DNA of 64,000 nucleotides from Rhodocytophaga aerolata (GTDB taxonomy: Bacteria > Bacteroidota > Bacteroidia > Cytophagales > 172606-1). Location of the stretch: contig NZ_JAUKPO010000029.1 of assembly GCF_030503435.1 (NCBI RefSeq), positions 1 through 64,000 of the forward strand, given 5' to 3'. Within the stretch, counting starts at the first letter, position 1. Every line of letters starts with the position of its first letter. The position numbers and the translations under genes were made by a program. Positions 6,297 through 54,200 of the stretch are shown here, one piece after another. The notes beneath the pieces were generated by a model. It ran no database searches. It saw only the letters and a program-made list of their open reading frames with translations, and was not told the DNA's origin.

Positions 6297-6299
6297 TAT

Positions 6300-36067: not shown

Positions 36068-37981
36068 TTAGCTCGCTATTTCCATTCCATCCAGAATCAT
36101 CAGGTAACGTCCATCGGTGATATTATCGGAGGCTACTACCCCTGCTGACGCTTTCACCTGCAAATGCTCTCCTTTTCTGTTTTTAACAGTTATTACATCA
36201 GACCAGAGATTATTTAAGTTCAGCTTGGTCTTTATTTGATCCATCTTGTTATGCAGCTTGAATACATTTTCTATGGAGTTGCCTATCACTTCTTTTGTAT
36301 CAAATTGAAGATAGGACTGCACCATATGATTTGCATAGGTAATTTTATACCGGTTATCAAATTCAATGATAAATTGTGTGCGGTCAAAAATGTTTTCCCT
36401 GGCTTTTGCATCTTTTTGTGCCCGTTGCATCTCCTCTTGTGTGGCCTGCAGTTCCTCCATATTCTGACGCATTTCTTCCTCCTGAGCCCGCATTTGCTCG
36501 GTAAGTATTGTAGAATCTTCTAACAACCTCTGGGTACGTTCATTGATCTTCACTGAGGAAACGGTGGAGGCAATGCTTTCGGCAATTTTTTCGATAAATT
36601 CTATTTCATACGTAGCAAACTCATTGAAAGAAGCCATTTCAATAACCCCGTATATTTCATCATTCACTTTTAAAGGTACAATCAGAATGCTCTTTGGATT
36701 GGCTTCTCCTAGTCCGGATGTAATAGTAATATAGTTCTGGGGTACTTCTGTGAGGTAAATGGTTTCTTTTTCCTGCCATACCTGGCCAGTGAGCCCTTCG
36801 CCTTCATAAATATGCTGCTCTATGTATTTCTTTTTGTCCCAGGCATAACATGAGGTTAACTCCAGGTAGGGCTCACTTTCCGTATCATTCACAATAAAGA
36901 AGCCTCCCTGATTGGCCTTCATGTATTTTACCAGATTGGAAATAAGCTCGTCGCCTAGTTTATTAATGTTATCATTGTTCCGTCTGAGGATTTCGCTGAA
37001 TTTAGCTACTCCTTCAGTAGCCCAGTTTCTGCGTTTATCGTCTTCAGCTACTTTCTCCAGGTTATTCCGCATATTGATCAGTGCATTTCCTAACACATCA
37101 TGTTCACTTAAGGGAGTAAAGGATGCCTGGTAATTCCCGTTTCCGATATTTTCGGCAAATAATGAAGTAGAACGCAAACCTACCACTAACTTGTCCACGG
37201 CTTGTGCCATATCGCCAATTTCATCGGTAGCAAAACTTTTATTCGTGCTTTCCGGAAGTTCTCCGTTACTAAGCTTCTGAATGATGTTGCGGATATAATT
37301 GATCGGCGACACAATCGTTTTTGTCAGGACAAAGGCGGCAATTAAGCCAATGACCACAGATAAAATACCGGCAGTTAAGCTTACCATACGCAAGTTTGAG
37401 AATGAGCTTAATAAAGCTATTTTTGTCTGGCTTTTTTCTTCATTCTTACTTACAATAATTTTGTTCAGCATAGATGATATTTGCCTGGTTCTGGGTAAAA
37501 TATCATCGTCGATCATCATTTGGTTGCTGAATTTTTTTGCTTCATCTTCGTAATCGTCGAAAGAATTCAGATCAGCCATAATGCCACTTTCTATGTTAAG
37601 TAGCAGATCAAAGTTTGCGAATACAGAATCTATCTGTCTTTGTTGTTCGGCGGTCCAGTGGGGTTTTAACTCCTGAATCTTTTCTTTCAATTCCGGATAG
37701 TCCGTTTTGTGTAGTTTCGTTAAGGCTTCTTTGTCTTCAGTGTTGGCACGCAGATATACCCAGTTAGTTATATACATTCTGGACTTGGAAACCAACAGGT
37801 TAAACTCATTCAACGCGTCTTTGGATGGGTCTACAATATCGGAGGTTTCGCGGATGATATTTGCACTTTTATTTAACGTGAGTAAACCTAGAGTGGCATT
37901 TATCATAAAAATAAAGATAAGAGCCAGAAAACCTCCCATTATTTTTTGACTGATACGGAATTGATAATTCGTAATACGCAT
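36068..37981 (-). CDS. Membrane sensor: four-helix-bundle, HAMP, GAF, coiled coil, PAS; no kinase
   Basis: A 637-aa membrane protein. The first membrane helix is at about residues 14-33, followed by a periplasmic four-helix-bundle domain. A second membrane helix lies near 195-218 (LSVVIGLIAAFVL), then a HAMP domain and a GAF domain around 330-480. The charged coiled coil EQMRAQEEEMRQNMEELQ leads into a PAS domain (IIEFDNRYKITYANHMVQSY). No histidine kinase, GGDEF or receiver is present. It must therefore act through a partner. It is a paralogue of the 481-aa protein encoded upstream. Confidence 0.85.
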   Translation of the reverse strand: MRITNYQFRISQKIMGGFLALIFIFMINATLGLLTLNKSANIIRETSDIVDPSKDALNEFNLLVSKSRMYITNWVYLRANTEDKEALTKLHKTDYPELKEKIQELKPHWTAEQQRQIDSVFANFDLLLNIESGIMADLNSFDDYEDEAKKFSNQMMIDDDILPRTRQISSMLNKIIVSKNEEKSQTKIALLSSFSNLRMVSLTAGILSVVIGLIAAFVLTKTIVSPINYIRNIIQKLSNGELPESTNKSFATDEIGDMAQAVDKLVVGLRSTSLFAENIGNGNYQASFTPLSEHDVLGNALINMRNNLEKVAEDDKRRNWATEGVAKFSEILRRNNDNINKLGDELISNLVKYMKANQGGFFIVNDTESEPYLELTSCYAWDKKKYIEQHIYEGEGLTGQVWQEKETIYLTEVPQNYITITSGLGEANPKSILIVPLKVNDEIYGVIEMASFNEFATYEIEFIEKIAESIASTVSSVKINERTQRLLEDSTILTEQMRAQEEEMRQNMEELQATQEEMQRAQKDAKARENIFDRTQFIIEFDNRYKITYANHMVQSYLQFDTKEVIGNSIENVFKLHNKMDQIKTKLNLNNLWSDVITVKNRKGEHLQVKASAGVVASDNITDGRYLMILDGMEIAS

Positions 37982-38380: not shown

Positions 38381-39826
38381 CTATCTGTTCTCCTGACCAG
38401 GAAACTGCGTTAGCCTGGATTCCAGATTCCGGATGAGTTCATCTTTATCCTGAAGTTTATTTTCGTAGGCGGATACTTTACGTTCCAGTTCTTCTTGCGT
38501 GGATTGCAGTTCTTCCATATTCTGACGCATCTCCTCTTCCTGGGATCTCATTTGCTCATTAATTAACTGAACTTCTACCAGCAATGAAGCTGTTTGCTGA
38601 TTGTTCCTGGCAGTAGATAAGGCAGCTGCTATGGTTTCCCCAATCTTTTCCATAAAGTTTCTTTTATAAGCAGGTATGTCTTCAAACGAGGCCAGTTCTA
38701 TGGCTCCAATCAACTGTTCATTATTCTTTAAAGCAACAATCAGCAGACAGGTAGGATTTGCTTTACCCAGGCCGGAGGTAATCTGAATATAGTTCTGTGG
38801 TAAATCGGTAAGGTATAAACTATCTTTCTCCAGCAATACTTGCCCAAGGAGTCCTTCCCCTATTTTGAATGATTTTTGCTGATGCTTAATCCGGTCGAAG
38901 GCATAGCAGCCTTTTAGTACCAATTGAGGATCTTCATCCCCTTCTACTACAAACAACCCACCTTGGTTTACCTGCAAGTATTTTACAATATTCTTGATCA
39001 GTTGTATGGAAAGTTCTTCCAGCGGTTGGTTAGCTATCCGGAGCAGCTGGCCGATTTCAGCCATTCCTATATTAATAAATTTGTCTTCTTCCTCTTTTAC
39101 CCGGGCAGCCAGTAAACTGTTTCTCATTTTCTGCAAAGAAGTGCCCAGTTCATCGGATGTGGAAAAATGATACTCTGTATCCAGATTGCCTAAGCTTATG
39201 GTTTCGGCAAAAGCAATGCTTCGATGCGTATTTTCCACCTGTTCCTGAAGCAATAACATATTCTTTGCATTGTTTACCGTTTGTATGCGTAACTGGTAAG
39301 CCCAAAGTCCGCATACAAAGACAATGGCCGAAGCTAACAGAGCATGAAAAATAAAAGCTTGCATACTCATATAATCCATTTGTGTAAAATAGATCTCTTT
39401 GTATCCCAGGTATTGCAAGTAGGCAAAACTACTATGATGCAGTATTACTAATAGAATGAGCGGGAGTTGTAGCTTCCAGTTCTGATACACGACCAACAGA
39501 ATGGCACCCAGAAAAGCAAAAAAGTGCATTTCAAACAGGCCATGCATCTGGTATATGAATTGTGCCATAAATACGGCCAGCACGGCACTGGCAACATATC
39601 TATGTAAATAGGAGTCTGGTAAGAGTGTTTTTGTTGCCAGATAGATGAATAGGCAGATGCTGCCGGAAGCCGCAGCTATGAGCCAGGTATCGTAAAAGAA
39701 AGCAAGGATAAAACCAAAAACATAATAACCTGCCATAAAGTACTGGATGGTCCGGTCTGCGTTAATGTCAATTTCCTGAATAAACGAGTTGATAGAAGTT
39801 GTTTTATTTGTACGAGTGTTGTTCAT
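38381..39826 (-). CDS. Multi-spanning membrane protein with GAF domain and coiled coil; no kinase
   Basis: A 481-aa protein. The first 190 residues carry about six hydrophobic helices (ILAFFYDTWLIAAASGSICL, HALLASAIVFVCGLWAYQL). A HAMP-like linker follows (TISLGNLDTEYHFSTSDELG), then a GAF domain near 265-410. The C-terminus is the coiled coil EQMRSQEEEMRQNMEELQ, almost the same as in the 637-aa paralogue. The protein ends there without a PAS or kinase domain. Confidence 0.8.
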   Translation of the reverse strand: MNNTRTNKTTSINSFIQEIDINADRTIQYFMAGYYVFGFILAFFYDTWLIAAASGSICLFIYLATKTLLPDSYLHRYVASAVLAVFMAQFIYQMHGLFEMHFFAFLGAILLVVYQNWKLQLPLILLVILHHSSFAYLQYLGYKEIYFTQMDYMSMQAFIFHALLASAIVFVCGLWAYQLRIQTVNNAKNMLLLQEQVENTHRSIAFAETISLGNLDTEYHFSTSDELGTSLQKMRNSLLAARVKEEEDKFINIGMAEIGQLLRIANQPLEELSIQLIKNIVKYLQVNQGGLFVVEGDEDPQLVLKGCYAFDRIKHQQKSFKIGEGLLGQVLLEKDSLYLTDLPQNYIQITSGLGKANPTCLLIVALKNNEQLIGAIELASFEDIPAYKRNFMEKIGETIAAALSTARNNQQTASLLVEVQLINEQMRSQEEEMRQNMEELQSTQEELERKVSAYENKLQDKDELIRNLESRLTQFPGQENR

Positions 39827-39866: not shown

Positions 39867-40493
39867 TTATTTCTGTAAAACAAGTTTAGCCGGCAACTCA
39901 CAGCCATAAGATCTGGTAGCTAGTTCCATAAACACCGGAGAGGGTTTTCGGGCTAGTAAGGAGTCGATAGCCATTTGGGCAAAGTTGGAATTGGCAGCTG
40001 TGCAATACCGCGATCTATTATAGTTTCCACGGTAGTATAGCTTTCCTTTTGTATCAATCAGGGCTGCCTGAGGCGTAGAATAAACTCCGCAGGCATTAGC
40101 CAGGGTATGATCTCTGTCTACAATTACAGGTACTGGCAAGTCATAGTGATCCTGAAAAGAACTAGCAGCAGTGGTGATATCCTCATCCTCGGTATGAATA
40201 ACCGCATAAACTTGAAGCTGATCTTGGTACTGGCTAATTAACCTCCGGACATGTTCCATGTTGAATCTGGAGCATGGACAGTCAGGATTGAAGAAATGCA
40301 GAAGAATGGGTTTCCCTGGTATCATACCTGGCAATGAAATTAACTCCACTGCTTGTCCTGTATTTACTGCATGGTAATCGTTTGGAACGGGTGTAGGAAG
40401 CAAGTACTGGCTTTCCTGATACCAGAAGATTGCCAGCAGACCACCGAAGGACAAAACAAGAAGGAAACTCACAAGGAAAATTTTGCCTTTCAT
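39867..40493 (-). CDS. Membrane-anchored thioredoxin-fold protein
   Basis: A 208-aa protein with an N-terminal hydrophobic anchor (IFLVSFLLVLSFGGLLAIFW) and a periplasmic thioredoxin-like domain. The active-site region is FFNPDCPCSRFN, a C-P-C arrangement rather than the usual CxxC, and the cis-proline region is STPQAALID. It resembles TlpA/AhpC-type redox proteins, but the altered motif makes ordinary disulfide exchange uncertain. Confidence 0.75.
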   Translation of the reverse strand: MKGKIFLVSFLLVLSFGGLLAIFWYQESQYLLPTPVPNDYHAVNTGQAVELISLPGMIPGKPILLHFFNPDCPCSRFNMEHVRRLISQYQDQLQVYAVIHTEDEDITTAASSFQDHYDLPVPVIVDRDHTLANACGVYSTPQAALIDTKGKLYYRGNYNRSRYCTAANSNFAQMAIDSLLARKPSPVFMELATRSYGCELPAKLVLQK

Positions 40494-41119
40494 GAAAATA
40501 GATTAGAATAGTGGAAATAGGCTTCAGGAAAGGCTGGTTAGCCTCCATTTTTTCATGGCTGAATAGTCGTAGTCTTGTTTGAATCAATCAGAGTTTATGA
40601 GTAGTGGTCTAACTATCAATTGTGTATAAACTCCTGTAAGCTGGCTTTAAGGTAATGCAATCTATAGCTAGCTATCTAAATCCTACTTCTAAAGAATTTA
40701 TCAAGCTATTTTGTGATGCTTCCTTATTATGCAAAATATTAGCTATTTGTAGATATAGTTTAACAAAAGATGGCTGAATATTACAAATTACCGGATTTTG
40801 TAAAACATGCAGAAAGTAATGCCTGTCTAAGTACATAGCAGGAAGGTGTATTAAACAAAAGAGCTGCAAAGTTTGCAGCCCATTTAGTGATATAAGGATT
40901 CTACTAAGTCTTGTATTTACCTATATGAATGATTGCTCCAGACGAGCATAAAAGCACAGTAACCACATATTTGCTTTAAATATATAAAAATTAAGCAATT
41001 TTATTTTTATAAAATACAATTTTGCCAAATTTTTTTCAGCAAGGGTGGAGAAATTTTGAAGTCAGATAAATTCTCTAAGGTAAGCATATTCTGGTGCGGG
41101 GTATTTTTCTTTCATAGCC
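40494..41119. other. AT-rich intergenic region before the outer-membrane operon
   Basis: Divergent space between the thioredoxin-like gene and the plus-strand operon. It has long A/T stretches near 40980-41035. An open frame at 40672-40869 has no coding character. No confident promoter could be assigned. Confidence 0.4.
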
Positions 41120-41299
41120 ATGAAACAAAGATCAGACAATTTCATAGATTTGATATTATTGCTTATATTTTATAGCAGTTTGGGTTCCATGCTGCATGGT
41201 TTTATGTTCAACTTGCAGCTTTTTGCACCAATCAAGAGACAGAAGCGGATAGGCCTGCTGTCTAAGTTAAGATCCGGAATATGTATAAATTTTGTTTAG
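41120..41299 (+). CDS. Possible small membrane peptide upstream of the outer-membrane operon
   Basis: A 59-codon frame from the ATG at 41120 to TAG at 41297-41299, with a hydrophobic segment (FIDLILLLIFYSSLGSMLHG) and a basic tail (IKRQKRIG). It overlaps the start of the next gene by 19 bp, compatible with translational coupling. No homology known; it could be chance. Confidence 0.25.
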   Translation: MKQRSDNFIDLILLLIFYSSLGSMLHGFMFNLQLFAPIKRQKRIGLLSKLRSGICINFV

Positions 41300-42018
41300 T
41301 CAGCGCATGGTTTTGCCTCATTGCTGTAATCCGAACAGTGGCTCAACCAAGTCAAGCAGATAGTACCAGTTTACCACAGGCAATATCTAGCGCCAAGCAG
41401 TTTTATCTACAAAAAACTCAAAACCAACTGCATTTATACAACGGGGTGGAATATATTACAGGCACTGAAGGCTATGTAAAAGGGCACCCCTATTTTAACT
41501 CAGATGTAGCAGAAGAAGGCACTATTTCTTACGACAACATTGTATATGCTCAGGTGCCCCTCCAGTACGATATTTTCAAAGATGAAGTAGTGGTGGAACA
41601 CATGGATAACGGGCATAAAATTAAACTGCATAGCCAGAAAATACAGCATTTCTCATTGGGTGGCCATACCTTTGTCCGGATTCAACCTAACAACACAGCA
41701 ACTTCCACTATCCGGCCCGGTTTTTACGACAGACTTTACGCAGGCCACGTTACCTTGTATGCCAGGCGAGTGAAGATAGCGCAGCAGGCCACCAGGGGCG
41801 TAAGCAAAGAATATCTTCAAAAAAACAGTTATTTCATAGAAAAAGACAACCAGTTTTATCCGGTAAAGAATAAGTCATCCGTACTGCGGGTGTTCAACGA
41901 TCAAAAAAAAGCCCTGCAACAATATTTAAGAGAAACCCACATGAAGTTCAAGCAAGATCCGGAGTATGCCATGGCCAAGCTTGCCGAACAGTATAGCCAA
42001 TTAGTAAAACCTTTATGA
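41281..42018 (+). CDS. Secreted protein of unknown function in the TonB-receptor operon
   Basis: A 245-aa protein with a signal peptide (FCLVSAWFCLIAVIRTVAQ). The mature part is probably beta-rich, with many aromatic residues (YNGVEYITG, YDRLYAGHVTLYARRV). No known domain recognised. Its stop overlaps the TonB-receptor start by 4 bp, so the two are coupled and may act together at the outer membrane. Confidence 0.75.
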   Translation: MYKFCLVSAWFCLIAVIRTVAQPSQADSTSLPQAISSAKQFYLQKTQNQLHLYNGVEYITGTEGYVKGHPYFNSDVAEEGTISYDNIVYAQVPLQYDIFKDEVVVEHMDNGHKIKLHSQKIQHFSLGGHTFVRIQPNNTATSTIRPGFYDRLYAGHVTLYARRVKIAQQATRGVSKEYLQKNSYFIEKDNQFYPVKNKSSVLRVFNDQKKALQQYLRETHMKFKQDPEYAMAKLAEQYSQLVKPL

Positions 42019-44795
42019 ATTATTTCAACCGCCTAGTTCTGTTGCTGGTTAGTTTATTTCTTTTCTGTAACGCTGCCTTGTGTCAAACTACCAATACTCC
42101 GCTCATCAGCGGCGATTTTGTTGATGTATCCTTCAGGCAATTTGTAGACGAAGTAGAATCCAAAACACCTTACTTTTTTTATTACGACTCTGCACATACC
42201 GACACCTTGCGCGTAACTATCCGCGTGCAGGAAAAACCGCTGAATACCGTACTCAGGCAGTTATTTAACGGAAAAGAGCTGTATTTTGCGATAGATGCTC
42301 AAAACCGGGTATACATTAGCAAAGGCAATGTTATCCGGACAGAATTACCCATTGGCTTTTTTGAAAATACGGAACCAGCTTCGACTACCTATGATGTAGC
42401 AGCCCTGGATTACCTGGAAGATAAAGAAAAATCAAAGGTACAGGCTTCTCTGGCAAACAAGTTATATGAAATTGGTAAAAAAACAGCCTCCATTCAGGAA
42501 GGGAGAGCTACTATTTCAGGGCAGATACGGAGTGCAGAATCCGGAGAGCCAGTTATTGGGGCTTTGCTTTTTATTGAGCAGCCACGTATTGGTGTGGCTA
42601 CTGATCAACTGGGAAATTATTCTATTACTTTGCCTAAAGGACGCCATGAACTGAAAATAAAGAATGTGGGAATGAAAGATACCCGCCGGCAAATAATGCT
42701 CTATGCTGACGGAAAACTGGATATTGAACTACAAAATGAGGTGGTTGCCCTGAATGAAGTTGTGGTGCAGGCAGAGAAAGATAGAAATGTAACGAGCGTA
42801 CAGATGGGCGTAGAACGGCTGGATATTAAAACGATTAAACAAGTACCCACCGTTTTTGGGGAAGCCGATGTTTTGAAGGTGGTTCTTACATTACCTGGCG
42901 TAAAAACAGTGGGAGAGGGCAGCAATGGATTCAATGTACGTGGTGGGGCTACCGACCAGAATTTGATTTTGTTTAATGAAGCTACCATTTATAACCCCTC
43001 TCATCTATTTGGCTTTTTTTCTGCCTTCAACCCCGATATTATTAAAAATGTAGAATTATATAAAAGTGGCATTCCGGCAAAGTATGGAGGCCGCTTATCG
43101 TCTGTTTTAGAAATAAACAGCCGGGATGGAGACAAGAAAAAATTTGCCGGTTCAGGAGGTATTGGATTGATTACGGGCCGGCTAACTTTAGAAGGGCCTA
43201 TTATTAAAGATAAAACTTCTTTTATAGTTGGGGCACGCTCAACGTATTCTGACTGGTTGCTAAAACAGCTGCAAAATGCCAGTTTCAACAGAGGGTCAGC
43301 TTCTTTTTATGATGTAAACCTGCACATCAGTCATGAAGTAAATAAGAATAATAACTTGCATTTTACCGGGTATTTGAGCCGCGACCGGTTTCAGCTTGGC
43401 AATGATACCTTATATGGGTACCGGAATCAGAATGCTACTCTTCGATGGGCGCATATTTTCAATAACCGATTAAGCAGTGAATTTACAGGTGGATTCAGCC
43501 GGTATCAGTATGATGTATCGAGTGACAAAAATCCTGTAAATGCGTACGATCTCTCTTTTGAAGTAAATCAATCCAGTCTGAAAGCTGATTTTAGTTATTT
43601 CCTGGCCGAAAGGCATAATATTGATTTTGGCGTAAGTACCCTGTATTACAAACTGTTCCCAGGAAGTTATTTACCCAAAGGCAGTGAATCGTTTATTTCC
43701 CCAAATATCGTAGAGCCGGAACAAGCCCTGGAAAGTGCCCTCTATGTTAGCGATGAATTTGAAGTTTCTCCTAAACTCTCGGTAAATATTGGTTTGCGGT
43801 ATTCGTTGTTTAATTACCTGGGTCCGAAAAATGTGGCGTATTATCCCATAGGTATACCTAAGGAAGAAGGAAACAGCATAGATACCATTGCCTATACCCG
43901 CGGAGATTTCATTAAAACCTATCATGGGCCAGAATACCGGCTTTCTGCCAGGTATGCATTAAACCAGAGTACTTCGCTTAAAGCCAGCTATAATAAAATG
44001 CGCCAGTATATGCATATGCTCTCCAATACGACGGCTATTTCACCCACCGATATATGGAAATTGAGTGATGTACATGTCAAGCCTCAGATTGGCGACCAAG
44101 TGTCAGTAGGCTTATATAAGAACTTTTTCTCTGGAGCCATTGAAACATCTGTAGAAACGTACTATAAAACCATGGCTAATTTCCTGGATTATAAAAGTGG
44201 GGCACTCCTGATATTAAATCATCATATAGAAACGGATATTATCAATGCGGAAGGCAAAGCCTATGGAGTGGAAGTAATGGTTAAAAAGCCGGCTGGAAAA
44301 CTGAATGGGTGGATGAGCTATACATACTCACGGTCTTTGTTGCGGGCAAATGATCCAGTAAATGCAGAGGTAATTAACCAGGGCGAATATTACCCTAGCA
44401 ATTTCGACAAGCCCCACGATTTTACCTTCATTGGCAATTATAAATTCAACAGGCGCATCAATGTATCCCTGAATTTTACCTATAGCACCGGAAGGCCTAT
44501 TACATTGCCTCTTGCCAAATATAGTCAGGGAGGTGCACAACGTATTTATTACTCTGATCGGAACCAGTATCGCATACCGGATTATTACCGGGCAGATGTA
44601 GCTATGAATATTGAAGGAAGTCACAAAATAAAAAAACTGGCTCACAGTTCCTGGACAATCTCAATCTATAATGTAACTGGTCGCAGAAATGCCTACTCTG
44701 TATACTTTACCTCAGAAAGGGGATCTATTAAAGGATACAAGCTTTCGATTTTCGGCATGCCTATTCCAACAGTTACCTACAACTTTAGATTTTAG
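42015..44795 (+). CDS. TonB-dependent receptor with STN and carboxypeptidase-like domains
   Basis: A 926-aa outer-membrane importer. Signal peptide at 1-24, then an STN domain (about 30-95, SGDFVDVSFRQFVDEVE) normally used for signalling to an anti-sigma factor. A CarboxypepD-like beta domain follows near 165-250 (ISGQIRSAESGEPVIGA), then the plug (GVKTVGEGSNGFNVRGGATDQN) and the beta-barrel ending in an aromatic residue (TVTYNFRF). No FecR/FecI pair lies beside it, so the STN domain may signal elsewhere or not at all. Imported substrate unknown. Confidence 0.9.
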   Translation: MNYFNRLVLLLVSLFLFCNAALCQTTNTPLISGDFVDVSFRQFVDEVESKTPYFFYYDSAHTDTLRVTIRVQEKPLNTVLRQLFNGKELYFAIDAQNRVYISKGNVIRTELPIGFFENTEPASTTYDVAALDYLEDKEKSKVQASLANKLYEIGKKTASIQEGRATISGQIRSAESGEPVIGALLFIEQPRIGVATDQLGNYSITLPKGRHELKIKNVGMKDTRRQIMLYADGKLDIELQNEVVALNEVVVQAEKDRNVTSVQMGVERLDIKTIKQVPTVFGEADVLKVVLTLPGVKTVGEGSNGFNVRGGATDQNLILFNEATIYNPSHLFGFFSAFNPDIIKNVELYKSGIPAKYGGRLSSVLEINSRDGDKKKFAGSGGIGLITGRLTLEGPIIKDKTSFIVGARSTYSDWLLKQLQNASFNRGSASFYDVNLHISHEVNKNNNLHFTGYLSRDRFQLGNDTLYGYRNQNATLRWAHIFNNRLSSEFTGGFSRYQYDVSSDKNPVNAYDLSFEVNQSSLKADFSYFLAERHNIDFGVSTLYYKLFPGSYLPKGSESFISPNIVEPEQALESALYVSDEFEVSPKLSVNIGLRYSLFNYLGPKNVAYYPIGIPKEEGNSIDTIAYTRGDFIKTYHGPEYRLSARYALNQSTSLKASYNKMRQYMHMLSNTTAISPTDIWKLSDVHVKPQIGDQVSVGLYKNFFSGAIETSVETYYKTMANFLDYKSGALLILNHHIETDIINAEGKAYGVEVMVKKPAGKLNGWMSYTYSRSLLRANDPVNAEVINQGEYYPSNFDKPHDFTFIGNYKFNRRINVSLNFTYSTGRPITLPLAKYSQGGAQRIYYSDRNQYRIPDYYRADVAMNIEGSHKIKKLAHSSWTISIYNVTGRRNAYSVYFTSERGSIKGYKLSIFGMPIPTVTYNFRF

Positions 44796-44802
44796 TTAGC
44801 AC

Positions 44803-45981
44803 ATGCAAAAACCGCTATTCAGCTATATATGTGGATTAGTACTAGTCTGGCTTACGGGAAGTTGTGTAGAGCCGTATCTGCCGCCACCTATTGAAGCGCC
44901 TGAAGGATTATTGGTGATAGATGGTTACCTGAACAGTGGAATAGGTGAAAGCCAGATCCGGCTGAGCCGTACCCAGAACCTGGCAGATACCAGCGTTGTA
45001 AAGGCAGAAGTATCAGCAAGTGTCTTTTTTGAGGGAGATAAAGGAAGTAAATATCCACTGACGGAGAAAGGGAACGGACTATATACCCTCGAAAGTATAC
45101 AACTAGAGAATAGTGAAAAATACAGACTGAAAATTAACACGAGTAATGGTCAGGAATATGAATCGGAGTATGTAGCAGTCAAAGCTACCCCACCAATAGA
45201 TTCGGTCAGCTGGAAAGTAGAGAATGGCGGTTTACAGCTGTATGCCAATACCCATGATGAGCAAAACAACACCTGGTACTACCGCTGGCGCTTTGAGGAA
45301 ACCTGGCAATATACTTCAGCTTTTGAATCTACCATGGACTTTGTCAACCGGCAACTAGTGCCCAGAAGTGAAGACATCTACCGGTGCTGGCGCACAGAAC
45401 CTTCCACCAACATTATCATTGGGTCATCTACCCGCCTCACCCGGGATGTGATCCAAGAGTTTCCTTTGCAGTTTCTGCCTTCCGATTCAGAAAAGCTAGG
45501 CATCCGCTACAGCATCTTGGTCCGGCAATATGCGTTGAGCAAAGAGTCCTATGAGTATTTGCAGAAGTTAGAGAAGAACACAGAGAACTTAGGTACCTTA
45601 TTTGACCCGCAGCCTTCCCAGCTGACAGGCAACCTGCGTTGTGTGAGTGATCCTGCCGAGATAGTCATCGGCTACTTTGATGTGTTAGCTGAGCAGCAGC
45701 AGCGCATCTTCATTGGCAAAGAACAACTGCCTGCCTGGGCGGTTACTACCGGCTATGAAGCCTGCCGAAATGATACGGTAGATATTGAAAGTCCTCCCCG
45801 TCCTGGAGAAGCTCAAATACCAAATGGGTATATGTTTATAGAAAGAAGATTGTATATAAAAGTATTTGATGATATGGGCAACATTATTAACCGGCCAACC
45901 ATTGGTGCCGTTATTTCTACAACTAACTGTGTAGACTGCCGCACCAGAGGCACGAATATAAAACCCGATTTCTGGCAATAG
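44803..45981 (+). CDS. DUF4249 lipoprotein, copy 1
   Basis: A 392-aa lipoprotein with lipobox LTGSC near residue 20. The N-terminal beta domain (IEAPEGLLVIDGYLNSG) is followed by the DUF4249 body. It starts 7 bp after the TonB receptor stop. DUF4249 proteins typically accompany TonB receptors of this type as surface or periplasmic partners. Positions 45206-45776 are identical to 46414-46984 in the next gene. Confidence 0.88.
   Translation: MQKPLFSYICGLVLVWLTGSCVEPYLPPPIEAPEGLLVIDGYLNSGIGESQIRLSRTQNLADTSVVKAEVSASVFFEGDKGSKYPLTEKGNGLYTLESIQLENSEKYRLKINTSNGQEYESEYVAVKATPPIDSVSWKVENGGLQLYANTHDEQNNTWYYRWRFEETWQYTSAFESTMDFVNRQLVPRSEDIYRCWRTEPSTNIIIGSSTRLTRDVIQEFPLQFLPSDSEKLGIRYSILVRQYALSKESYEYLQKLEKNTENLGTLFDPQPSQLTGNLRCVSDPAEIVIGYFDVLAEQQQRIFIGKEQLPAWAVTTGYEACRNDTVDIESPPRPGEAQIPNGYMFIERRLYIKVFDDMGNIINRPTIGAVISTTNCVDCRTRGTNIKPDFWQ
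45206..45776 (+). repeat. 571-bp identical duplicate within DUF4249 copy 1
   Basis: Base-for-base identical to 46414-46984 by line comparison, whereas the flanking coding sequence of the two genes has diverged strongly. Indicates recent gene conversion or unequal exchange. Confidence 0.9.
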
Positions 45982-46016
45982 AAATTCGGGAAAATACACT
46001 ATTTAAATATATTAGG

Positions 46017-47186
46017 ATGCTACCTAAAAATTATGTTTGGCTATACATACTGCTGCTCTTTATTAGCAGCTGTGTAGAGGAGTATCTGCCACCACCCATT
46101 GAAGCGCCTGAAGGGTTATTGGTGATAGATGGTTACCTGAACAGCGGGCAGGAAGCCAGTACAATTGTTCTTTCCCGTACGCAGAATCTGGCAGATACTG
46201 TTAATCCCATAGCTGAAACAGGAGCCAGGGTTATTGTACAAAGTGAACAACAGGAGTCATACCAGTTTATGGAAACCGGCAATGGGGTGTATACACTGCC
46301 GGCTATAAATGTAGTTAGCGGACAAAAATACCGGCTTCAGATACTAACTGCCTCTGGCCAGGAGTATGAATCGGAGTATGTAGCAGTGAAAGCTACGCCT
46401 GCCATCGATTCGATCAGCTGGAAAGTAGAGAATGGCGGTTTACAGCTGTATGCCAATACCCATGATGAGCAAAACAACACCTGGTACTACCGCTGGCGCT
46501 TTGAGGAAACCTGGCAATATACTTCAGCTTTTGAATCTACCATGGACTTTGTCAACCGGCAACTAGTGCCCAGAAGTGAAGACATCTACCGGTGCTGGCG
46601 CACAGAACCTTCCACCAACATTATCATTGGGTCATCTACCCGCCTCACCCGGGATGTGATCCAAGAGTTTCCTTTGCAGTTTCTGCCTTCCGATTCAGAA
46701 AAGCTAGGCATCCGCTACAGCATCTTGGTCCGGCAATATGCGTTGAGCAAAGAGTCCTATGAGTATTTGCAGAAGTTAGAGAAGAACACAGAGAACTTAG
46801 GTACCTTATTTGACCCGCAGCCTTCCCAGCTGACAGGCAACCTGCGTTGTGTGAGTGATCCTGCCGAGATAGTCATCGGCTACTTTGATGTGTTAGCTGA
46901 GCAGCAGCAGCGCATCTTCATTGGCAAAGAACAACTGCCTGCCTGGGCGGTTACTACCGGCTATGAAGCCTGCCGAAATGATACCGTAGATGTTATGGAC
47001 ATACCTCCTTTGCCATCTGGCTATATGTTTATTGAGAAGCAGTGGTTTTATAAACCCATTACAGGACCAGTAAGAGATCCTTCAGCACCTTTGTTTGTCT
47101 ATACAGAAGGAGCCGTTATTTCACCCATTAGTTGTGTAGACTGCCGCACCAGGGGCACGAATATAAAACCTGATTTCTGGCAGTAA
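46017..47186 (+). CDS. DUF4249 lipoprotein, copy 2
   Basis: A 389-aa paralogue of the preceding lipoprotein with lipobox LFISSC near residue 19. The N-terminal 130 residues differ markedly from copy 1 apart from the first segment (EEYLPPPIEAPEGLLVIDGY). The central 190 residues are identical to copy 1, and the end again differs until the shared tail CVDCRTRGTNIKPDFWQ. It lies 35 bp downstream of copy 1 in the same operon. Confidence 0.88.
   Translation: MLPKNYVWLYILLLFISSCVEEYLPPPIEAPEGLLVIDGYLNSGQEASTIVLSRTQNLADTVNPIAETGARVIVQSEQQESYQFMETGNGVYTLPAINVVSGQKYRLQILTASGQEYESEYVAVKATPAIDSISWKVENGGLQLYANTHDEQNNTWYYRWRFEETWQYTSAFESTMDFVNRQLVPRSEDIYRCWRTEPSTNIIIGSSTRLTRDVIQEFPLQFLPSDSEKLGIRYSILVRQYALSKESYEYLQKLEKNTENLGTLFDPQPSQLTGNLRCVSDPAEIVIGYFDVLAEQQQRIFIGKEQLPAWAVTTGYEACRNDTVDVMDIPPLPSGYMFIEKQWFYKPITGPVRDPSAPLFVYTEGAVISPISCVDCRTRGTNIKPDFWQ
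46414..46984 (+). repeat. 571-bp identical duplicate within DUF4249 copy 2
   Basis: Second member of the identical pair; offset from copy 1 is 1208 bp. Both boundaries are sharp: single-base differences at each end are followed by diverged sequence. Confidence 0.9.
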
Positions 47187-47205
47187 GTTGCCTTTAATAA
47201 AGTAT

Positions 47206-49614
47206 ATGAACCAGACCATCCTTACCCGCATACATTTAATCTTCTTTCTCATGGTCAGCTGCGCTGCAAACCTGTTTAGCCAGACGGATGCATCAGAGGA
47301 GGTAGTTCAGAAATTTAATAACTATAGCCGGCAAGCTTTACAAGAGAAATTATATATTCATACAGATCAATCGGTTTACCTCACCGGCGAATTGCTCTGG
47401 TTTAAAGTTTACTATGTAGATGGCACCCTACATCAACCGCTAGACCTAAGCAAAGTAGCTTATCTGGAAGTACTTGACCAGGATCAGCGGCCAGTATTGC
47501 AAGCCAAAGTGGCTTTATCTGACGGGAGTGGGAATGGTTCTTTTTTTCTGCCTGCTTCCCTAAACTCCGGGAATTATCTGATCCGGGGATATACCAACTG
47601 GATGAAAAACTTTGACAAGGCATATTTCTTTGAAAAACCAGTAACTATTATTAATACTTTCCGGCAGATAGGTGCCTTGCCAGTAAAAGATACGTTGCAT
47701 TATGAGGTGCAATTCTTTCCGGAAGGAGGGAACCTTGTTGAAAATATAGCCAGCAAAGTGGCCTTCCGGGTAACTGATCATTATGGAAAAGGAGTGGGCT
47801 TTAAAGGTGTAGTGCTTACTGCCGAAAACGACACGGTTGCCAGGTTTCAGCCACAAAAATTCGGCATAGGTCATTTTTTATTTACTCCACTACCTGGCAA
47901 TCAATACAAAGCTATACTCCGGCTTGCCAACGGAAAAGAGCTTATCCAAAAACTGCCTGAGATACATTCTCTGGGTTATACTATGCAACTGGAAGAATCA
48001 GCTGCAGGAGAGATAAACGTAACTGTGCAGGTTGCATCCACCACTCCGTTGCCGCATGTCTATTTACTTGCACATACCAGGCAGCAAATAAAGATCGCAC
48101 AGAAGCAAGCATTACAACAAAACACTGCAACCTTCACTTTTTCAAAACAAGTATTGGGAGACGGTATTTCACACATCACTATTTTCAATGCAAGCAACCA
48201 GCCTGTTTGTGAACGTTTGTATTTCAAAAGGCCGGAACAAAAACTGGTAATTAGTGCTAAAGCTGATCAGGAAATACATAGCTCCCGTAAAAAAGTGGTG
48301 TTGGATATTTCTACCCAGCATACATCTGGCAATCCGCTTGCTGCCCAATTATCGGTAGCCGTATACAAAACAGATACTCTGCTGACCGGGGATAATCTAA
48401 CATTGCCGAGTTATCTCTGGCTCAGCTCTGATTTAGCAGGAAAGGTTGAGTCGCCTGACTACTATTTTACCGAAAATGGTCCACACGTTCAGCAGGAATT
48501 AGATAACCTGATGCTGACACATGGCTGGCGGAGATTTAGCTGGCAACAAATGATGAAAGGAGATCGCCTGTCTTTAAAATATATTCCTGAATATGAAGGC
48601 CATCTGGTTCAAGGCCGTATAATTCATACAACCCAAAATACACCTGCCGCCAATATATCTGCATATTTGTCTGTTCCGGGAAGATATCCTCAATTATATA
48701 TAGCTCAAAGTGATTCGGCAGGGGAATTATTGTTTGCTGTCAAAGAGGTATATGGTGCACGGCAGCTTATTGCCCAGACAAACTCCCAACGGGATAGTCT
48801 ATACCGGATAGAATTGAAGTTACCTTATTTTGAAACAAGTTCTTCGTGGCAACTACCTTATTTTTCATTAGCAGCGCAGACAACAGATGCCTTGCTTACC
48901 CGAAGCTTGAGCATGCAGACCCAGAATACATATTTTGCTGGGAAAAGAAATCATTTTACTGCTTTTCGTCCGGATACAGCCACTTTTTACGGGTCACCAG
49001 ATGCCAGATACCATCTGGATGAGTACACCCGGTTTCCGCTGATTGAAGATGTATTGAAAGAATATGTGCCAGGTGTGCAAGCCAGAAAGCGGAGAGGCAA
49101 CTATTATCTGGAAGTGTTAGACTTGCCTCATAAAATTAATTTTACGGATAATCCCCTGGTTGTAGTAGATGGAGTACCTGTATTTGATATGAACCGGCTT
49201 ATGTCATACAATCCCTTTAAAGTAAAGCGGCTGGATGTTGTTACCAGGAAGTATTACCTGGGGCCAGAATCGTTTAGTGGCGTGTTGGGTTTTGCTACGT
49301 TTACAGGAGAAGTGGCCGGTTTGCCTTTAGACCCAGGAGCAGTTATTCTAGATTTTGAGGGCTTACAACAACAACGGGAATTTTACGCACCCTTGTATGA
49401 TACTCCCCAGCAGCAGGAAAACCGCTTGCCCGACTTTAGACATTTATTGTTCTGGTCGCCTACAGTAAAAACCAATAAAGATGGTAAGACTCAACTGGCG
49501 TTTTACACATCTGATATGGAAGGGGAGTATACTGGTGTATTGGAAGGTATAACGCCGGATGGTAAGATAGGGCATTCAACCTTTACAATTACCGTGCAGC
49601 ATCCTCCTAAATAA
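47206..49614 (+). CDS. Large MG2-like secreted protein with TonB-plug-like segment
   Basis: About 802 aa from the ATG at 47206; an in-frame TTG at 47188 would add six residues ahead of the signal peptide and is less likely. After the signal peptide come macroglobulin-MG2-like beta domains (EKLYIHTDQSVYLTGELLWF, SGNYLIRGYTNWMKNF). The C-terminal third has a plug-like stretch (FPLIEDVLKEYVPGVQ, NPLVVVDGVPVFD). Such proteins accompany TonB receptors in Bacteroidota and probably assist substrate handling at the surface. It is the last gene of the operon. Confidence 0.8.
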   Translation: MNQTILTRIHLIFFLMVSCAANLFSQTDASEEVVQKFNNYSRQALQEKLYIHTDQSVYLTGELLWFKVYYVDGTLHQPLDLSKVAYLEVLDQDQRPVLQAKVALSDGSGNGSFFLPASLNSGNYLIRGYTNWMKNFDKAYFFEKPVTIINTFRQIGALPVKDTLHYEVQFFPEGGNLVENIASKVAFRVTDHYGKGVGFKGVVLTAENDTVARFQPQKFGIGHFLFTPLPGNQYKAILRLANGKELIQKLPEIHSLGYTMQLEESAAGEINVTVQVASTTPLPHVYLLAHTRQQIKIAQKQALQQNTATFTFSKQVLGDGISHITIFNASNQPVCERLYFKRPEQKLVISAKADQEIHSSRKKVVLDISTQHTSGNPLAAQLSVAVYKTDTLLTGDNLTLPSYLWLSSDLAGKVESPDYYFTENGPHVQQELDNLMLTHGWRRFSWQQMMKGDRLSLKYIPEYEGHLVQGRIIHTTQNTPAANISAYLSVPGRYPQLYIAQSDSAGELLFAVKEVYGARQLIAQTNSQRDSLYRIELKLPYFETSSSWQLPYFSLAAQTTDALLTRSLSMQTQNTYFAGKRNHFTAFRPDTATFYGSPDARYHLDEYTRFPLIEDVLKEYVPGVQARKRRGNYYLEVLDLPHKINFTDNPLVVVDGVPVFDMNRLMSYNPFKVKRLDVVTRKYYLGPESFSGVLGFATFTGEVAGLPLDPGAVILDFEGLQQQREFYAPLYDTPQQQENRLPDFRHLLFWSPTVKTNKDGKTQLAFYTSDMEGEYTGVLEGITPDGKIGHSTFTITVQHPPK

Positions 49615-49782
49615 AACGGCGAATATAAGAGTTAACGAGCCATTTATCCTCGGCTTTATATTTATTAATCATTGTTTAATTGAATTACCATCATCATACT
49701 TATTATTCTCATAAATACATTTACTGGAATATAAAAGGTTTGCGTTTGAGTAAGTATCTATGAATGATGCTTAAACATATAC

Positions 49783-49812
49783 AAAAAGGCTGCTTAGTTA
49801 AGCAGCCTTTTT
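49783..49812. terminator. Bidirectional terminator between convergent operons
   Basis: 14-bp perfect stem AAAAAGGCTGCTTA with a 2-base nominal loop, flanked by A and T runs. It separates the plus-strand receptor operon from the minus-strand susD gene. Confidence 0.88.
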
Positions 49813-49833
49813 CTTATAAATGTGGCCGATGTA

Positions 49834-51261
49834 TTACCTTACATCCCACCAAAGTTTATTAGTAAGCACGTCTTGGCCAATAGCTGAAACAGCTTGTGCA
49901 TAGTTGGTTGGGTTCAGCGTTTGTTCTAATACTGGATAGGTAAACCGAACAGGTACCGATGCTACAAATGCGTCGGCCGGGGCTTGTAATTGCGGAGAGT
50001 CTAATCTTCTCCACTCTGTCCAAGCATCCCAACCCCGGTTATAGAGGGCAATCCATTTCTGTTGGCCAATTTTCTCCCGGAAAGTAGCGCCAGATGTCAG
50101 GTAGTTTACTTCAGGTTTTAATAGATAGGTAGCCGCATCAATTGCTGTTCCCCCCCAATCTAAGATAGAAGCTGTTACAGCTGCATTATAATGTTCAATA
50201 GCTGTACCACCTACATTGAAACCTCTTTCTGTTGCTTCTGCTAACAAAAATTCAACTTCTGCATAGTCTAACAATACGCCTCTGAACTCAGGATCAATGA
50301 TTTCTTCGGCAGGTTTAGAGAACAGCGTATAGTTGTTACTTGTACCATATGTACCTCCTACATAAGCACCATTGATTGGTGTAAAGTAGAAAGGTAAACG
50401 TGGGTCGCCAAGAGCATTCATTCTATTTACCAGTGTATTAGCCACTATAAAATCCTGACGTCCGCTCTGTACCAAGTCAACCCAGATTGGGTTTGTATTG
50501 GGTGGTGCAGGAAGATATTGGAAAATGGCATTGTCATCATTAGAAGTAAATACATTGGGTGCGGCTTGTTCAGCTAACGTTTGTGCTTTCGCAGCATCTA
50601 CATCGGCAATCACCATGGCCATCTTTAGTTTTAAAGAATTGGCAAATTTTACCCAGCTAGCTATATCGCCACCATAAATCAAATCGCCGGTGCCAAAACT
50701 GTTGGCAGACTCATCCAATAAGGCAATAGCTGCATCCAGTCTGGTTAACAAATCATTGTATACAGTAGAAGCATCATCGTACTTTGGTGATGGAATGGTG
50801 TAGTCTAGGGCCTCTGTATAGGGGATATCACCAAATGTATTTACCAGCACTTGCCAGGCATACACTTCCATAATTTCGATCTGAGCCAACTGGTTTTGTT
50901 TCAAAGCTTCGTCTACAACAGATTCGTCTGCTTCCAAAATAGTGCGGGCCTCTTTCAGGTCTCTCAGGACTGATACATACAATGTATTCCAGAATGTCTG
51001 CGGAATATTCCGGGTATTCAGGTCATATCTGGGTTCATCGGTGTAAGTAGTAGTTGTCCAGTGTTGAGCAAGTAAACGAAACACATTATCGTTTACACTA
51101 GTGCTGGTCATAATATCCGTCAGGTTTTTCTGTGCATTAGAAAACAGTGTAACTGCCGGAACTTCCGTGGCACTTTTAGGATCTGTGTTGAGCTCTGTCA
51201 GATCATCCTGGCAGGCTAACGTAGAAAATAAAAATATAAATACTATACTAAGTTTTTTCAT
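49834..51261 (-). CDS. SusD/RagB-family lipoprotein
   Basis: A 475-aa surface lipoprotein with lipobox STLAC near residue 17 and a TPR-rich SusD-like body (NTFGDIPYTEAL, SWVKFANSLKLKMAM, LLAEATERGF). It is the lid and substrate-capture partner of the SusC channel encoded 9 bp upstream. The substrate (glycan or peptide) is not indicated; no glycoside hydrolase is nearby. Confidence 0.93.
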   Translation of the reverse strand: MKKLSIVFIFLFSTLACQDDLTELNTDPKSATEVPAVTLFSNAQKNLTDIMTSTSVNDNVFRLLAQHWTTTTYTDEPRYDLNTRNIPQTFWNTLYVSVLRDLKEARTILEADESVVDEALKQNQLAQIEIMEVYAWQVLVNTFGDIPYTEALDYTIPSPKYDDASTVYNDLLTRLDAAIALLDESANSFGTGDLIYGGDIASWVKFANSLKLKMAMVIADVDAAKAQTLAEQAAPNVFTSNDDNAIFQYLPAPPNTNPIWVDLVQSGRQDFIVANTLVNRMNALGDPRLPFYFTPINGAYVGGTYGTSNNYTLFSKPAEEIIDPEFRGVLLDYAEVEFLLAEATERGFNVGGTAIEHYNAAVTASILDWGGTAIDAATYLLKPEVNYLTSGATFREKIGQQKWIALYNRGWDAWTEWRRLDSPQLQAPADAFVASVPVRFTYPVLEQTLNPTNYAQAVSAIGQDVLTNKLWWDVR

Positions 51262-51270
51262 GGCAAATAA

Positions 51271-54200
51271 TTAGAATCTTAATTGAACATTAAATCCAAG
51301 GTTGCGGGTAGTAGGATAGCTACCTACCTGATAGCCTTGCAGGTTACCAGAGCTTAAGCCATCTTCAGGATCAGCATAAGGCAGTTTTTTATGGAAGATG
51401 AACAGGTTTCTTCCGATAACTGATACATCAATACCACGGAAAGGCTGAATTCTGTCTACCCAAGCTTGTGGTACAGAGAAGGTTAAGTTAGCTTCTCTCA
51501 GTTTAATGTAGCTGGCATCATACACAAATCCGGCTGCAGGATTTCTGGCATATCCGAAAAGGCCATAGTTGGTAGCACTTACTCTTCTCTCGTTTGGTGT
51601 GCCATCTTCTAGTACGCCAGGTACAATATATCCGCCACCGTTGGCAATGCTATTTCTTAAGGGATTGCCCAGGTCGTTTAAGCCGGCTGTTTCAGGATAA
51701 CCACCGGTAGCCAGGCCATAATACATATCCAGTGAGAAAACATCGCCGCCTTGTCTGGTGTCAATTAAGAAACTCAACGATACATTTTTGTATCTCAACG
51801 TATTTTGAATACCGCCAATCCAGTCAGGGTTGATATTTCCGATGATTTCATTGGAAGTAGCAGAGCGGGCATAGTATCCGGTTGGTAACACTATTTTCTC
51901 CCCGTTCTCATGATAGACAAAGTTCTGTCCTCTGATTGTTCCATAAGGTTCGCCTAAAGCAGCATTGATAGATACACCACCCTGGAAGTTACCCAATGGA
52001 AGGTTAGTAATACCTGGATATAATGCTTTTACTTCGTTTCTGTTGCGGGTCCAGTTCACATTTACAGTCCAGGTGAAAGATGGTGTTTTGATAGGGGATA
52101 CAAAAGCAGTAACCTCCCAGCCTCTGTTTTCAACATCACCAGCATTGATATATCTGGACGTATACCCGGTAGCTCTTGAAATACCTACAGGGATGATCTG
52201 GTCAACTGTATTTTGCTTATAATAAGTAACGTCAAATCCTAAACGGTTATCCAGGAAAGCCATTTCTACACCAGCCTCATAACTTTTAGTACGTTCGGGC
52301 TTTAACTCAGGGTTATTTTTTATGTTAGGTACGGAGAAAAGAGGTGTAGAGCCAAAACCTGTTGGTTTATCAAAAACATCCAGAATACTTTGAACAGGAG
52401 CCGTATTACCCACTTCAGCATAGTTCAAACGTACCTTTCCGGCAGTTAACCATGGCGTGTTTTTCATCAATTCAGAGAAAACGAAGCTGGTAGATATAGA
52501 AGGGTAATAATATACATTTGCGCCAGCAGGTAAAGAAGATGCTTCATCTCTTCTGGCTGCCAGATCCAGGAATATGAAATCTCTGAAACCTATGGTAGCA
52601 CTGGCAAAAATACCATTTACCTGAAGGTCGGAATAAACTTCTTCAGGCGCTTCAATTGGATTCAACGAGTTTGATAAAGAATATAAATTAGGTACAACCA
52701 GACCACCATTGGTTTCTGCGTAAATAGATTCAATCGTTGTTCTCCGGATGTTGGTACCAATTACACCTTTCAAATTAAAGCTTTCAGAAAGGTCTTTATT
52801 CATGTTCACTAACAGATCGTAGTTGTATTCGCTGAAGGTACGGTTGAATCTGGAATACTCAGAAGGAGAGAGGCTACCCACAGCATATCTTTCTTCAGCC
52901 ATAAAATCGTTTCTGTCCAAAGATATACGTCCCAATACATCAATCCAGTCGGCAATTTTGTAGGTTAAACTCACATTACCAAAATATCTGGAACGTACGT
53001 CATTCTGATAATTTTCATAACGAGTCCAGTAAGGGTTATCCCAGTATATCGGCACTGGATTATCAGACAGTGGATTTGCCCAGTTCCAGGTTACGTTTTT
53101 GCCTGACCGGAAATACGCATCTTTCTGCTCTAGAATGTCTACGTTTGTTTGCCACCACTGACGCATATTGGTAGCAATGTTTTTATCATCATAGCCAGTA
53201 CCATATCTACCCAGACCCTCAGTCAGGGTGAAGTTGATGGAGGCGGAAGCGGTTAATTTATCCGTTACATTGTAGCCAGCGCCGAAGTTGATAAAGTTTT
53301 TCTTTAGTTCACTGTTTGGTAAAATGCCTTGTTCGGTATTTCTGCCATAACCTAATTTGAAATATCCTTTGTCGCTACCACCATCAACCATAATGCTGTG
53401 AGAAGAGGTTATAGAGTTTTTAAAGAATTTGATAGGATCATTCGCAGGAGCAACCCAAGGAGTAGGGGTTCTGTAGAAAGGAGAAGTAGGATCAAAGGCA
53501 TTCCACTGGTATACTGACAAGTTTGGATCGAAAGGACCACCATAAGAAGCATCTTCAGTGGTAGGTACAATTAAATCTGTGATTCCATCTCCATTTACGT
53601 CTGCTTCATTAAAGTAGGCATCTTCATTTGGTCCGTAGTAAGCACCGTAGCCGCCTCCATATTGTCTCTGGAAGGTAGGAAAAGTATTTTTGTTAAGCAT
53701 ACCTACGGTCATACCTGAATTAACAGTTACACCCAAGCCTTTTCTACCTTTTTTGGTGGTAATCAAAATCACACCATTGGCGGCCCGTGAACCGTACAAC
53801 GCAGTAGCTGCAGCACCTTTCAACACGTTGATAGATGCAATGTCGTCCGGATTGATATCTGCTGCTGCGTTACCATAATCGTACCCGCCGCGGCCCGTTA
53901 CCTGGCTACCTCTCTGAGAAACAGCATTATTACTGTTTACGTTAGAGTTATCTATTGGCACGCCATCTACAATAAACAGTGCCTGGTTATTACCAGTCAG
54001 TGATTTGTTACCACGGATAACCACGTTGGTAGATCCACCCATGTTATTGTTTCTGGTAATCTGCAGACCAGCTACTTTGCCTGATAAAGCATTCACAAAG
54101 TTGTTTTCCCGGACTTTAGCAATAGATTCGCCACTTACTTGCTGGGCAGCATAAGGTAATTCGTTTTTGGTTCTTTCGATACCCTGCGCAGTTACGACTA

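Follow-up and report, generated by a model that had tools for sequence, protein, structure and literature searches.

Silent-site identity between tandem DUF4249 lipoprotein genes of Rhodocytophaga aerolata and its recurrence in related arrays

Why should two adjacent genes be identical in their middle and strongly diverged on both sides of it, and what does such a mosaic say about the encoded proteins? The question is raised by a 64,000-nucleotide stretch of DNA from Rhodocytophaga aerolata (assembly GCF_030503435.1, contig NZ_JAUKPO010000029.1, positions 1 to 64,000 of the forward strand), here called the window. On its plus strand it carries two tandem open reading frames (ORFs) for DUF4249 lipoproteins, copy 1 (44803..45981, 392 amino acids) and copy 2 (46017..47186, 389 amino acids). 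Pfam scores both at 183.4 bits against DUF4249 (PF14054), well above the cut-off of 28.5, with E-values of 8.0e-54 and 8.4e-54. An earlier note on this DNA described a sharp-edged gene conversion of 571 bp between the two genes, and likened the result to antigenic or substrate-range variation of surface lipoproteins.

The identical tract in the window pair

Alignment of the two ORFs reveals a single unbroken identical run of 571 nucleotides, which covers residues 135-325, the runner-up being a run of 29 nucleotides. The exact run lies at 45206..45776 in copy 1 and at 46414..46984 in copy 2, both on the plus strand, and bears out the length given for the core in the earlier note. Silent and replacement divergence (dS and dN, respectively) were determined by segment with the Nei-Gojobori method. 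dS is 0 across the 190 codons of the tract, while the synonymous sites of residues 46-115 and 326-376 are saturated, with a proportion of synonymous differences (pS) of 0.83 and 0.75 and dN values of 0.55 and 0.60, respectively. The right edge of the tract is as sharp as had been described, but the left edge is gradual and fades through residues 116-134 (dS 0.90). Likewise, the strong divergence ascribed to the flanks applies to the two saturated segments but not to the short ends of the genes: residues 20-46 of copy 1 (44860..44939, plus strand) have 91% DNA identity to positions 46068-46147 of copy 2, and the C-terminal motif CVDCRTRGTNIKPDFW (45904..45980, plus strand) has 87% identity to positions 47109-47185. 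Since dS is low beside saturated segments at both ends (0.27 for residues 22-45 and 0.40 for residues 377-392), these ends may have been affected by older exchanges. Most of the remaining difference between the window proteins is in the signal peptide, in residues 46-115 and in a C-terminal variable segment, VR2, which is defined below.

To evaluate silent identity we used a run test restricted to codons that encode the same residue in the two copies; it compares the longest stretch without a silent difference with that obtained on shuffling. The window pair has 184 identical synonymous codons in a row, against 25 expected, with P = 0.0002, which is the floor of 5000 shuffles. Because the test conditions on amino-acid identity, protein conservation is ruled out as the cause of this run. 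A tandem pair with an identical middle would also be expected after a recent duplication of the whole gene, followed by selection that diversified the two ends only. However, selection on the protein cannot saturate the silent sites of the flanks and leave 190 tract codons unchanged. In addition, a tree groups the copies by position across species in two pairs of relatives with orthologous arrays (G086/G098 and G163/G174), so in both the duplication preceded the divergence of the species; in a third (G239/G218) the tree groups the copies by genome, and an older duplication is suggested there by the variable segments VR1 and VR2 alone. A recent whole-gene duplication is extremely unlikely in our view, and was set aside as contradicted by the dS profile.

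The window thus holds a tract of silent identity with diverged silent sites on each side, the pattern by which gene conversion is recognised, and the tract together with the dS of the segments supports the conversion between tandem DUF4249 lipoproteins that had been proposed. The window genes are old duplicates, and the best reading of the two sequences is that ectopic gene conversion, or else a pair of unequal crossovers, took place between them recently; gene conversion and a duplication followed by deletion through unequal crossover leave the same final sequence. Most likely, one copy recently overwrote the middle of the other. A DNA search of the 9.07-Mb genome found no further copy beyond this locus. 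Among 58 relatives there is no close orthologue of the pair, the best matches being 53% and 50% identical, and a wider scan of genome contigs gave three distant loci with 28-29% identity.

Exchange in the tandem arrays of relatives

We surveyed 66 adjacent tandem pairs from 44 arrays, the window included, using frames of at least 250 amino acids. The tandem loci were chosen by eye from adjacent matches among those listed, so the arrays number at least 44 and the survey is incomplete. The pairs of six loci (L045, L046, L048, L049, L050 and L052) were viewed before the test was designed, and the other loci were taken blind to the signal. Multi-copy arrays give several pairs that are not independent, and one locus fetched for two adjacent matches (L113 of G337) has one frame of the required length, hence no pair. 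With 5000 shuffles, a silent-identity run was obtained at P < 0.001 in 20/66 tandem pairs, which come from 16 arrays (strong runs, hereafter), and at P < 0.05 in 28/66. With 1000 shuffles, 19/66 tandem pairs reach P ≤ 0.001, compared with 3/352 of the between-genome controls, which comprise all 352 pairs with at least 55% protein identity, genes being reused among pairs. Because the median synonymous identity of the controls is lower than that of the tandem pairs (0.47 versus 0.58), we also used the subset of 81 controls with a synonymous identity of at least 0.55, none of which reaches P ≤ 0.001, compared with 19/38 tandem pairs in the same range.

The strong runs are found in different parts of the gene: six lie in residues 9-100 (N-terminal domain), 12 in residues 217-321, and the remaining two at residues 183-259 (L112) and 133-324 (the window). 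A five-copy array (L099, positions 2023-8091 in G263) has an identical core in all ten copy pairs, with 126 bp common to all five copies, which differ in VR2 and mostly also in VR1; this array is detached from the transporter discussed below. The earlier note recommended, as a check, looking for more cassettes that share a core but not their ends, and this check is positive in this relative. The wider description, a common core with variable ends, is correct in that shared cores exist, but the tracts vary in position (6/20 being N-terminal) and it is VR1 and VR2 that usually stay different. These comparisons of gene sequences give good support to the view that homologous exchange between tandem DUF4249 copies recurs in relatives, with tract positions differing. 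Between separate DUF4249 loci within one genome, 13 comparisons gave a longest run of 27 nucleotides, which does not prove that closeness is needed, because those copies are also more diverged.

An identical middle could also be unreal, if the reads of the two copies had been merged during assembly. The genome is in 202 contigs, and an exact repeat of 571 bp is hard to resolve with short reads. On the other hand, since the flanks to the left and right differ between the copies, only the order A-core-C-B-core-D is possible within the contig, and merging requires that the true copies are nearly identical, so that stretches diverged like the flanks cannot merge. Tracts of the same kind are also present in G001, G050 and G218, relatives whose assemblies consist of one contig, although the significant ones there are only 83-101 bp long. 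We regard an assembly artefact as very unlikely. Perfect identity, taken alone, could result as well from extreme constraint on the DNA or RNA, such as a regulatory element or structure in the middle of the gene, but silent differences occur along the whole gene in the 352 between-genome pairs and the tracts of other arrays are located elsewhere, which leaves this explanation with a negligible probability.

Variable segments VR1 and VR2

VR1 comprises residues 178-198 (45334..45396 in copy 1 and 46542..46604 in copy 2, plus strand); it is usually copy-specific in arrays, and is identical in the two window copies. VR2, a C-terminal variable extension, comprises residues 322-376, from just past Cys321 to Cys376 (45766..45930 in copy 1 and 46974..47135 in copy 2, plus strand), with 22/60 columns identical between the window copies. 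The limits were drawn from an initial set of 29 relative pairs and then kept fixed for 36 others, where VR1 shows lower identity than the remainder of the protein in 33/36 and VR2 in 36/36 (median identities of 0.48 for VR1, 0.28 for VR2 and 0.71 for the rest). The middle of VR2 is covered by none of the 20 strong runs, and VR1 is wholly covered only by the window tract and partly by the L112 run.

We then compared orthologous arrays of different species in four combinations (G086/G098, G163/G174, G239/G218 and G163/G182). Matching copies have a VR2 identity of 0.45-0.91 and siblings one of 0.23-0.37; for VR1 the ranges are 0.59-0.96 and 0.40-0.52, respectively. The VR2 contrast is modest in G239/G218, with 0.47 and 0.45 for matching copies versus 0.37 and 0.30 for crossed ones. 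In this combination and in G163/G182, siblings resemble each other outside these segments at least as much as orthologues do. A count of best matches in 30-residue windows along 115 array genes (46 arrays) gives a similar profile. Siblings are the top match of 40-57% of the genes in each of the ten windows that fall within residues 22-151 and 222-311; the share drops to 34-38% in windows 142-171, 182-211, 202-231 and 302-331, to 24% in window 162-191, and to 18-23% across the three windows of residues 322-391. At VR1 and VR2 themselves the values are 25% and 27%. The dN/dS ratio of VR1 and VR2 taken together is 0.04-0.32 in 12/13 orthologue pairs, dS being saturated in the thirteenth; these pairs were hand-picked among the closer matches and the genus g86. 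VR1 and VR2 are therefore copy-specific and mostly stable in the relatives examined, as far as these alignments tell, and not fast-changing. Their tracking of copy identity across species looks like stable specialisation, and a role of the VR differences in substrate range is possible.

These results also bear on antigenic or phase variation, in which the array would be a store from which frequent recombination makes new surface variants. Surface lipoproteins with recurrent conversion, the cassette-like array with one shared core in G263, and the detached arrays of 2-7 copies would all suit such a system. However, antigenic variation calls for a variable segment that changes fast among close relatives, and in the orthologous arrays of different species VR1 and VR2 are instead kept by copy, with the low dN/dS given above. 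Furthermore, conversion makes the body uniform and usually leaves the variable segments alone, which is the opposite of what happens in the classical systems. Of the 133 frames, 132 have at least 330 amino acids and one has 272 (L097, 1376-2194), so that no store of silent fragments is seen, although frames below 250 amino acids would be missed. There is also no inverted repeat of at least 40 bp at positions 40000-52000, a scan that did not extend to recombinase genes. The antigenic variation put forward in the earlier note is not supported by these data, and we consider it improbable.

The AlphaFold model of copy 1, built on an alignment of 73 sequences, has a mean predicted local distance difference test (pLDDT) score of 89.9 and mainly beta structure. 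Structure comparison gives generic two-domain matches of immunoglobulin/fibronectin type III (Ig/FnIII) type over approximately residues 35-312, with Z < 8 and low TM-scores, for which reason no homologous fold is claimed; a sequence search for DUF4249 among solved structures gave nothing meaningful. With domain limits that are tentative, the window tract would span approximately the whole second Ig/FnIII-like domain. VR1 holds the modelled strands 178-181 and 184-187, and VR2 falls largely in a C-terminal extension of low confidence (pLDDT of 57-69 in blocks of residues 331-370). Cys195 is invariant in the 73 sequences and Cys321, Cys376 and Cys379 are present in at least 90% of them, all at the edges of VR1 or VR2. 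Disulphides among these four cysteines could bring the two segments together.

The low model confidence of VR2 raises the possibility that VR1 and VR2 are loosely constrained loops with no ligand role, and that tracts stop there since diverged DNA blocks strand exchange. Heterology is indeed a barrier to recombination, and both segments are among the least conserved parts of the protein even in unrelated homologues. Against this, the VR segments are under purifying selection between orthologues, and they are sometimes better conserved than the body, as in L084_2/L085_2 (identity of 0.83 for VR2, 0.95 for VR1 and 0.70 for the rest), which is not what unconstrained loops would do. Loose loops are an explanation that we take seriously but find rather unlikely.

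Operon, transporter and a possible shared channel

In the window, the genes follow an operon-like order on the plus strand. The first encodes a secreted protein of 245 amino acids ('small', 41281..42018), which has no match in Pfam or NCBIfam at an E-value of 0.001. It is followed by a TonB-dependent transporter of 926 amino acids (42015..44795), the two DUF4249 genes beside it, and a last gene for a protein of 802 amino acids with a weak MG2-like domain (47206..49614; E-value 1.3e-05, 25.9 bits, below the Pfam cut-off of 32.8). The transporter comprises a weak STN domain (5.1e-04, under the cut-off of STN itself), a CarboxypepD_reg-like domain (CarbopepD_reg_2, 8.1e-17), a plug (Plug, 2.7e-08) and a beta-barrel (OMP_b-brl_4, 2e-10), and a sequence search of solved structures with it gave no match at an E-value of 0.001. 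Scans for promoters and terminators around the operon found no more than expected by chance. Both DUF4249 proteins have the features of a lipoprotein, namely a conserved cysteine after a signal peptide, and a surface location is predicted; Cys21 lies in a lipobox-like sequence (judged by eye), and a cysteine is present in this column in 130/133 homologues.

The same neighbourhood is found in relatives. A transporter match is present in the fetched stretch of 36/45 relative arrays and fits one gene in length, except in L093, which has two operons. The DUF4249 genes are usually located between the transporter and the MG2-like gene, with one copy beyond the MG2-like gene in L052 and L112. The 'small' gene was matched by tblastn in 18/24 array loci with wide flanks (L045-L093) and the MG2-like gene in 35/45 array loci, where flanks are short from L095 on and matches there are cut. 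In the six transporter loci examined, the 'small' gene adjoins the transporter in 6/6, and the MG2-like gene adjoins the transporter or its DUF4249 also in 6/6.

The nine other arrays (L075 and L095-L102), without a transporter match in the fetched stretch, were classed as remote. A transporter with 57-61% identity over nearly its full length is encoded somewhere in 16/16 genomes searched, the nine with remote arrays included. Six of these nine were followed up by frame. In G136, G263, G272, G331 and G332 the transporter operon consists of 'small', transporter and MG2-like gene, with no DUF4249 frame of at least 150 amino acids between them, and the remote arrays have 7, 5, 2, 3 and 2 copies, respectively; G331 has one more single DUF4249 elsewhere among the matches listed. 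In the sixth genome, G265, the transporter has a DUF4249 neighbour and there is also a remote array of three. Among the matches listed, G268, G275 and G315 have one transporter with a DUF4249 neighbour and another transporter, in G315 a partial match, with no listed neighbour of this kind. The seven consecutive DUF4249 genes of G136 (L075, 5143-13985), transporter-free, adjoin genes for a DNA polymerase III alpha subunit and LysM proteins.

Two further repeats were observed in the window. A 77-bp repeat with 80% identity is located at 36423-36499 and 38481-38557, its second copy within the frame 38381-39826. A minus-strand open frame at 55035-63875, of at least 2946 amino acids since it leaves the window, has Ig-like repeats with a 252-bp unit, and its end resembles a type IX secretion sorting domain. 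Inside this frame, 62170-62811 and 62929-63570 share 98.8% identity over 642 bp, compared with approximately 70-84% for other repeat pairs, which makes this another recent duplication or conversion within the window.

We propose the following explanation for the mosaic of the DUF4249 genes. RecA-type recombination between the direct repeats of one operon would produce the exchange, in the form of gene conversion or of duplication then deletion by unequal crossover. The DUF4249 lipoproteins would act at the surface as partners of the one TonB-dependent transporter encoded next to them, and conversion would keep the transporter-facing body alike across all copies. Selection would keep VR1 and VR2 private to each copy, these segments being probably ligand-contacting and framed by cysteines 195, 321, 376 and 379. 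On this view, the copies of an array would capture ligands for one channel and could stand in for one another as its partners. The physical partnership, the contact of VR1 and VR2 with ligand and the selection holding these segments apart are steps that we infer. The detached arrays fit this shared-channel reading, with one channel and several remote partners. Overall, we consider it probable that tandem exchange, a shared transporter, a homogenised body and private VR1 and VR2 together reflect such interchangeable partners.

A number of observations weigh against this explanation. In the run test, P < 0.05 is also reached by 38/352 controls, and by 14/81 of the closer ones (25/38 for the tandem pairs), so this class holds false positives and we relied on the strong one. 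No run at P < 0.05 is found in 38/66 tandem pairs, and the seven-copy array of G136 is without any significant run. A single genus (g14) supplies 18/20 strong pairs, out of 54 pairs of its own, and outside it only 2/12 pairs are strong, namely the window and L050; the orthologous arrays L081 and L106 may record one event. In G086/G098 and G163/G174 the body is also more alike between orthologues, so that no homogenisation is visible there. VR2 is more different than the rest of the protein in L084_1/L085_1 (0.65 versus 0.82). Apart from the signal peptide, VR1 and VR2 are the least conserved parts, and since they vary in unrelated homologues too, low constraint explains part of the pattern. 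The protection of VR1 is not absolute, because the window tract wiped out any VR1 difference. Finally, we infer the facing of VR1 and VR2 towards a ligand.

The proposed arrangement has parallels in known systems. In the SusC/SusD systems of Bacteroidota a surface lipoprotein also partners a TonB-dependent transporter, but the match of the window transporter to TIGR04056 (SusC/RagA) is partial and scores 53 bits, far below the cut-off of 368.25, and by this measure the transporter does not belong to that family. SusD has a helical fold, whereas DUF4249 models as mainly beta with generic Ig/FnIII matches. Tandem paralogues are known to undergo gene conversion, and concerted evolution with locally protected segments occurs in tandem gene families; in a similar manner, the body of DUF4249 is homogenised within a genome and some segments are retained by copy across species. 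A closer parallel in gene order is the BT2172/BT2173 pair of Bacteroides thetaiotaomicron, a TonB-dependent transporter and a DUF4249 protein that, according to PMC11003636 and the genetics it cites, are encoded in a conserved operon and cooperate genetically, disruption of either having similar consequences. The likeness, which is of description and not of sequence, extends to both window genes sitting beside a transporter gene, but BT2172/BT2173 is a pair, and here there are at least two DUF4249 per transporter, exchange between copies and detached arrays. That paper is the one naming DUF4249 in the literature searched, which omits most subscription journals, and within the same literature we found no description of gene conversion in DUF4249 or in transporter-partner lipoproteins. 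In Mycoplasma genitalium, too, recombination among related stretches of the same genome is reported to remodel a surface protein, MgPa (PMC2169797); the MgPa exchange creates variation, whereas that of DUF4249 homogenises the body and the variable segments usually remain copy-specific.

DUF4249 is an uncharacterised lipoprotein family of Bacteroidota, and the mosaic hints at which parts of the protein need to stay alike in every copy and which carry the identity of each copy, so that it points to residues worth mutating. If VR1 matters for specificity, the window pair may bind more similar ligands than other pairs. Tentatively, and with some doubt, the arrays may be taken as a modular receptor repertoire in which one TonB channel is served by up to seven alternative lipoproteins, some of them remote, with the transporter-facing body kept interchangeable by conversion and the cysteine-framed VR1 and VR2 giving each copy its ligand specificity. 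If the arrays do serve one transporter, they would be a natural experiment in which a TonB-dependent channel alters its uptake by swapping the lid.

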